Positions 9,897 through 9,934 of a DNA stretch of 33,209 nt are shown here, one piece after another. The position numbers were made by a program, and so were the translations under genes. The stretch comes from an uncultured Brachyspira sp. (GTDB taxonomy: Bacteria; Spirochaetota; Brachyspiria; Brachyspirales; Brachyspiraceae), in NCBI RefSeq assembly GCF_944390845.1, contig NZ_CALXRM010000034.1, forward strand, positions 1 through 33,209. The letters are read 5' to 3'. Below the pieces are notes generated by a model that saw only the letters and a program-made list of their open reading frames with translations, ran no database searches and had not been told where the DNA came from. Each line of letters begins with the position of its first letter. Within the stretch, counting starts at the first letter, position 1.

Positions 9897-9934
9897 TTGG
9901 CTTGGCTTGGCTTGGCTTGGCTTGGCTTGGCTTG
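9897..9934. repeat. Pentanucleotide tandem repeat (CTTGG)~7.6
   Basis: 38 bases of uninterrupted CTTGG units (about 7.6 copies) lie in the gap between the divergent FkbM-like gene and the first HAD phosphatase, roughly 90-125 bases upstream of the methyltransferase start. The sequence is far more GC rich than its surroundings. On the - strand a TATAAC hexamer follows directly (near 9890), so copy number could change promoter geometry. No start codon in frame with the methyltransferase lies upstream of the array, so it is outside the coding sequence. Confidence 0.95.

Follow-up and report, generated by a model that had tools for sequence, protein, structure and literature searches.

In frameshift contingency genes such as Neisseria opa and Haemophilus lic, short repeats lie inside the gene itself, and at nadA a repeat sets the spacing of a promoter. 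The GAA repeats of Mycoplasma gallisepticum vlhA are promoter-spacing repeats too (PMC6258824). In trp-type attenuation, the ribosome on a leader open reading frame (ORF) decides whether a terminator forms (summarised in PMC3894217). The system most relevant here is pil1 of Streptococcus gallolyticus, where GCAGA repeats in a leader-peptide gene act with a premature terminator to turn pilus transcription on and off (Danne et al. 2014, PMC3894217). Work with variants, chloramphenicol, and start-codon and terminator mutations established experimentally that repeat number changes, that translation is required and that the terminator takes part (PMC3894217). We found leader-peptide repeat attenuation reported only for two pilus operons of this one streptococcus. 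In Brachyspira, Vsp proteins have been discussed as phase-variable in general terms (PMC5415613), and a search of the literature outside subscription journals found no report of such attenuation, of pentanucleotide repeats or of phase-variable repeats in the genus. Here we analyse a CTTGG pentanucleotide array at positions 9897-9934 of a stretch of 33,209 nucleotides (hereafter the window) from an uncultured Brachyspira sp. (assembly GCF_944390845.1, contig NZ_CALXRM010000034.1, positions 1 to 33,209 of the forward strand), which stands upstream of a gene for an FkbM-type methyltransferase. Comparison with related loci suggests that arrays of this kind are likely to be genus-wide phase-variable leader-peptide attenuators.

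The initial annotation had described the array as 7.6 perfect CTTGG copies, and both position and count are confirmed by Tandem Repeats Finder (period 5, 100% matches, score 76), which ranks it top in score among the 63 tandem-repeat rows of the window. Our comparison covered 26 genomes of the genus, one per species, and 270 other genomes of the phylum Spirochaetota. The CTTGG unit is found in 13 of the 26 genus genomes, and runs of at least five units in 10 of them compared to none of the 270 others, a distribution far beyond chance. At the 28 CTTGG loci that we read (plus one at a contig edge), CCAAG lies on the strand of an adjoining surface gene, mostly 60-200 nt before its start, and the targets are FkbM methyltransferases, glycosyltransferase (GT) families 8 and 11, a radical-SAM protein and a lipoprotein family of ~600 residues. 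Other genes with the N-terminal motif IVWWIPFKKLR have different perfect repeats in the equivalent place, with units such as ACAAC, CAAGA, AGTCA, AGACC, ACAGC, TCAAA (46 copies), AAGC (35 copies) and several 7-mers; the target list of this second set is biased because the loci were found via a glycan-gene motif, a bias from which the CTTGG set is free. In total, we collected 55 array loci in 31 sequence clusters from 18 of the 26 genus genomes (20 when the unscorable loci L064 and L109 are counted). Their 15 distinct units are all 4, 5 or 7 nt long, never 3, 6 or another multiple of 3.

The IVWWIPFKKLR motif (9751-9808 in the window; loci L095-L184) is common to unrelated folds, including FkbM, GT11, GT29 and radical SAM, and reaches up to 25 copies per genome, with all 26 genus genomes encoding it; it is perhaps a common membrane or complex anchor. 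One further gene of this type in the window genome has an (AACACTC)10.9 array 74 nt ahead of it (L126, G000:C48, 553-628). The AGACC/CAGAC arrays of L124, L156 and L157 are preceded by an apparent truncated fragment of another IVWWIP-type gene, which may act as the leader ORF.

The loci share a common order on the gene strand: a sigma-70-like promoter, an ATG, a short leader, the repeat, a segment that may or may not include a terminator hairpin, a Shine-Dalgarno sequence and the gene. The predicted promoter lies complete upstream of the array in the window and at nearly all related loci, where TTGACA-16/17-TATAAT occupies the place of the window promoter. The leader ATG is usually only 6-7 nt past TATAAT, so that the RNA would begin at or near this ATG. 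In 12 of 26 clusters, the open ATG that lies furthest upstream has a TATAAT matching at all six positions 4-10 nt ahead of it, compared to 2.9% of comparable ATGs (p 3e-12), and a few leaders (L111, L122 and L163) have a Shine-Dalgarno sequence of their own. In 25 of 29 cluster representatives, no stop interrupts the frame from the leader ATG into the array (shuffles 14.1 +/- 2.6). Whatever the rotation, all 15 units are free of stop codons on the gene strand, whereas five contain one on the opposite strand, the pattern that translation of the repeats in the direction of the gene would predict. At L054 (3328 onward), the leader ORF stays open for ~400 nt past the array in one phase, suggesting that this repeat belongs to a longer gene.

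What depends on repeat number is the phase of the leader ORF, and not promoter spacing. The longest post-array phase stops within 25 nt of the gene start, or beyond it, in 25 of 31 clusters (shuffles 11.4 +/- 2.1). Compared with array-free upstream regions the contrast is smaller than with shuffles but persists, with such a phase in 22 of 26 compared to 16 of 40 array-free regions (p 4e-4). The leader stop overlaps the gene start exactly (-4) at L043, L046, L050, L051, L053 (three copies) and L062. Intrinsic terminators are present in 12 of 31 cluster representatives (shuffles 0.6 +/- 0.7), and at 26 loci in all a clear terminator is located between array and gene. At 24 of these 26, one phase or more runs into or past the hairpin while one or more stops short of it.

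An attenuator built in this way would operate as follows. Transcription would start at the sigma-70-type promoter upstream of the array, and a short leader ORF would begin at the very 5' end of the RNA or near it, many leaders being leaderless and some having a Shine-Dalgarno sequence. The ribosome would translate the leader through a tandem repeat with a unit length not divisible by three, and slippage would alter the repeat number and with it the phase in which the sequence beyond the array is read. One or two phases (ON) would take the ribosome into or past the hairpin, often to a stop at or overlapping the gene start, and transcription of the surface gene, perhaps with coupled translation, would continue. 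In the other phase or phases (OFF), a stop soon after the array would allow the hairpin to fold and transcription to terminate. Loci that lack an intrinsic terminator, mainly those of lipoprotein genes, may rely on Rho-dependent polarity or on coupled re-initiation. The anatomy, its recurrence, the phases and a one-unit difference between duplicates are visible in the sequence itself; leader translation, termination and switching in cells are what we infer.

Judged by present repeat number, the 26 terminator loci comprise seven predicted ON, 13 predicted OFF and six that are not callable. In the window genome, for which the repeat count is a lower bound, a second CTTGG array on contig C60 has 14.8 copies; this locus is intact and predicted OFF. 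Repeat numbers differ even between duplicates. L053 has four related genes in tandem, each with its own array ahead; copies 2 and 3 are identical over the 245 nt that lead up to the array and the 180 nt that follow it, and have 11.8 and 10.8 units, respectively, so that copy 2 (predicted OFF) and copy 3 (predicted ON) are exactly one unit apart. The purL-linked methyltransferase locus has 7.6 units in the window, 9.6 at L047 and 15.6 at L061. The purL-adjacent methyltransferase of L047 is itself broken by an early stop (3079 onward, MDIKTINNFLWWVPFKEIRKYL*), and its leader and array look intact. At L051 (near 2743-2812), unrelated coding sequence replaces the promoter and leader upstream of the array, as if recombination had used the repeat.

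In the window, all relevant features lie on the minus strand. The putative promoter has a -35 element TTGCAT (10006-10011), in place of which related loci have TTGACA, TTGATA or TTGAAA, and 17 nt further a -10 element TATAAT (9983-9988). A remnant leader ORF, MNIQFFYKNSG* (9940-9975), starts 7 nt after the -10. The array follows (9897-9934); read on the gene strand as (CCAAG)7.6 it would encode (AKPSQ)n in any frame, and it is predicted to lie within the transcribed leader, before an intrinsic-terminator hairpin and the Shine-Dalgarno sequence. In the post-array stretch (9831-9896), one of the three phases is open through the hairpin to a TAA at 9833-9831; of the remaining two, one has a stop just past the array and the other inside the hairpin. 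The hairpin, CCTAACAATCAATGTTAGG (9846-9864), is followed by ATTTTTT (terminator 9864-9839) and was identified by scan and folding, the scan finding one terminator compared to 0.0 in shuffles (-7.6 kcal/mol, z -3.64). The Shine-Dalgarno sequence AGGAG occupies 9814-9818. The target gene, MDHKTIDRIVWWIPFKQLR... (9008-9808), is an FkbM methyltransferase as had been stated (PF05050, E 7e-16), and its start is more likely the ATG at 9808-9806, which has AGGAG at 9818-9814, than the mechanical ORF start at 9853, which falls inside the hairpin. We rejected the option that the array belongs to the methyltransferase's own frame: stops separate array and start, and at L042, L046, L053 and other loci the open phase runs into the gene out of frame with it.

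The window copy has the anatomy of the class, but switching by the leader route is not predicted for it. Its leader stop, TAA 9942-9940, ends 5 nt before the array, so the leader ORF never reads into the repeat and, as assembled, the locus cannot switch via the leader ATG. Sequence comparison with L064, where the adjacent HAD gene is 76% identical to that of the window, shows that the L064 leader reads MNIQYFYKNSGLNLQAKPSQ and that the window leader is 1 nt shorter. Relative to L064, the window leader carries a 1-nt deletion and is probably a decayed, locked copy, most likely low, unless the missing base is an assembly error. We class the window locus as a broken relative of the leader-peptide attenuators and not as a working member. 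Next to it, divergent from the methyltransferase, are tandem duplicate HAD-type hydrolases (10066-10869 and 10912-11715), of which L064 has one copy in the same position. A search for relatives among genome contigs gave only two distant FkbM matches, and comparison with phages and plasmids yielded nothing informative. The window genome also encodes the Brachyspira/Serpulina variable surface protein family (PF05540, E 2e-106), which has no match in 14 control genomes.

How does this organisation compare with the known systems? In the features visible from sequence, the Brachyspira terminator loci fit the pil1 plan. Like pil1 (and pil3), they have short repeats in a leader ORF downstream of a promoter, a premature intrinsic terminator and a surface gene, and the phases stop before, within or after the hairpin. 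They differ in belonging to the Spirochaetota, in comprising dozens of loci with 15 unit types of 4, 5 and 7 nt compared to the pil1 pentamer, in their many likely leaderless leaders, in stops that overlap the gene start, in a terminator-free class, and in targeting glycan and lipoprotein genes instead of pili. With trp-type attenuation they share a leader-ORF ribosome that would govern the terminator; the signal is heritable repeat number in Brachyspira and amino-acid supply in trp. As in opa and lic, a short repeat with a unit length not divisible by three would shift a reading frame when it slips, but in Brachyspira the repeat is in a separate upstream leader ORF and the frame of the surface protein is untouched. 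The vlhA and nadA repeats also lie upstream of a surface gene, but in Brachyspira the whole predicted promoter precedes the repeat, which would be transcribed.

This last difference bears on the earlier proposal that copy number sets promoter spacing. That idea started from a TATAAC on the minus strand directly downstream of the array, and this hexamer does exist, at 9896-9891. However, the putative promoter (TTGCAT-17-TATAAT, 10011-9983) is already complete upstream of the array, as it is at nearly all related loci. Nothing in the repeat resembles a -35 hexamer, the related loci do not conserve TATAAC, and a consensus scan found no promoter that uses the array. We consider a switch in promoter spacing or strength most improbable. 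What stands of the phase-variable promoter suggested initially is a slippage-prone array before a surface-modification gene, of a repeat kind that recurrently marks Brachyspira surface genes; phase variation is probably correct in kind for the repeat family, with the mechanism wrong and the window copy probably not working. A frame-independent effect in the 5' untranslated region, by which repeat number alters mRNA folding, stability, or RNA or protein binding, has been proposed for Moraxella uspA2. The array does sit in the predicted transcribed leader, and GCUU-type anti-repeats seen by eye beside several arrays could pair with the units. Such an effect fails to predict the absence of unit lengths divisible by three, units that are stop-free on the gene strand only, leader ATGs placed at the promoter and phase-specific stops around the hairpin, and we regard it as quite improbable.

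Pure translational coupling, in which leader translation brings ribosomes to the gene start and the hairpin is irrelevant, would account for the exact ATGA overlaps listed above and for the many lipoprotein loci that lack a terminator. It leaves aside the textbook terminators with T-runs between array and Shine-Dalgarno sequence at 26 loci, and most target genes have a Shine-Dalgarno sequence of their own; we think this explanation unlikely. The arrays could also be static recombination debris with no regulatory role, as the broken window copy and the L051 array fused to unrelated coding DNA might suggest, but 31 clusters have perfect repeats, of 15 unit types, in the equivalent place, and duplicates that otherwise match exactly differ by one unit; we regard the debris explanation as very improbable. 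Several observations nevertheless weigh against leader-peptide attenuation itself. Even without an array, intergenic regions in this AT-rich genus often leave one phase open (the 16 of 40 mentioned above), which makes openness alone weak evidence. By a strict test, 19 of the 31 clusters have no terminator, and at two terminator loci, L122_138 and L148, no phase reaches the hairpin. Codon-position counts of 98/137/160, with gaps not in threes, give no clear sign of purifying selection on the leader peptide, which is expected if openness alone matters but gives no positive support. To these should be added the window leader that stops short of its repeat, and the fact that our reading is built from sequence, with a single genome for each species.

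It seems to us on balance probable that, in Brachyspira, dozens of repeat-encoded leader-peptide attenuators that switch independently, many of them starting on leaderless RNA, together with a terminator-free class that uses coupled translation or Rho, govern a large part of surface glycosylation and a large family of lipoproteins. If so, these swine and human gut spirochaetes, whose surface variation is poorly understood, would have a means of combinatorial surface variation that does not involve recombinases. Each switch state would be readable from sequence as repeat number modulo 3, which would allow genomes to be used for testing surface variation, serotype instability and the choice of vaccine targets. 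Finally, a mechanism of two streptococcal operons would become a recurring regulatory strategy in an unrelated phylum.
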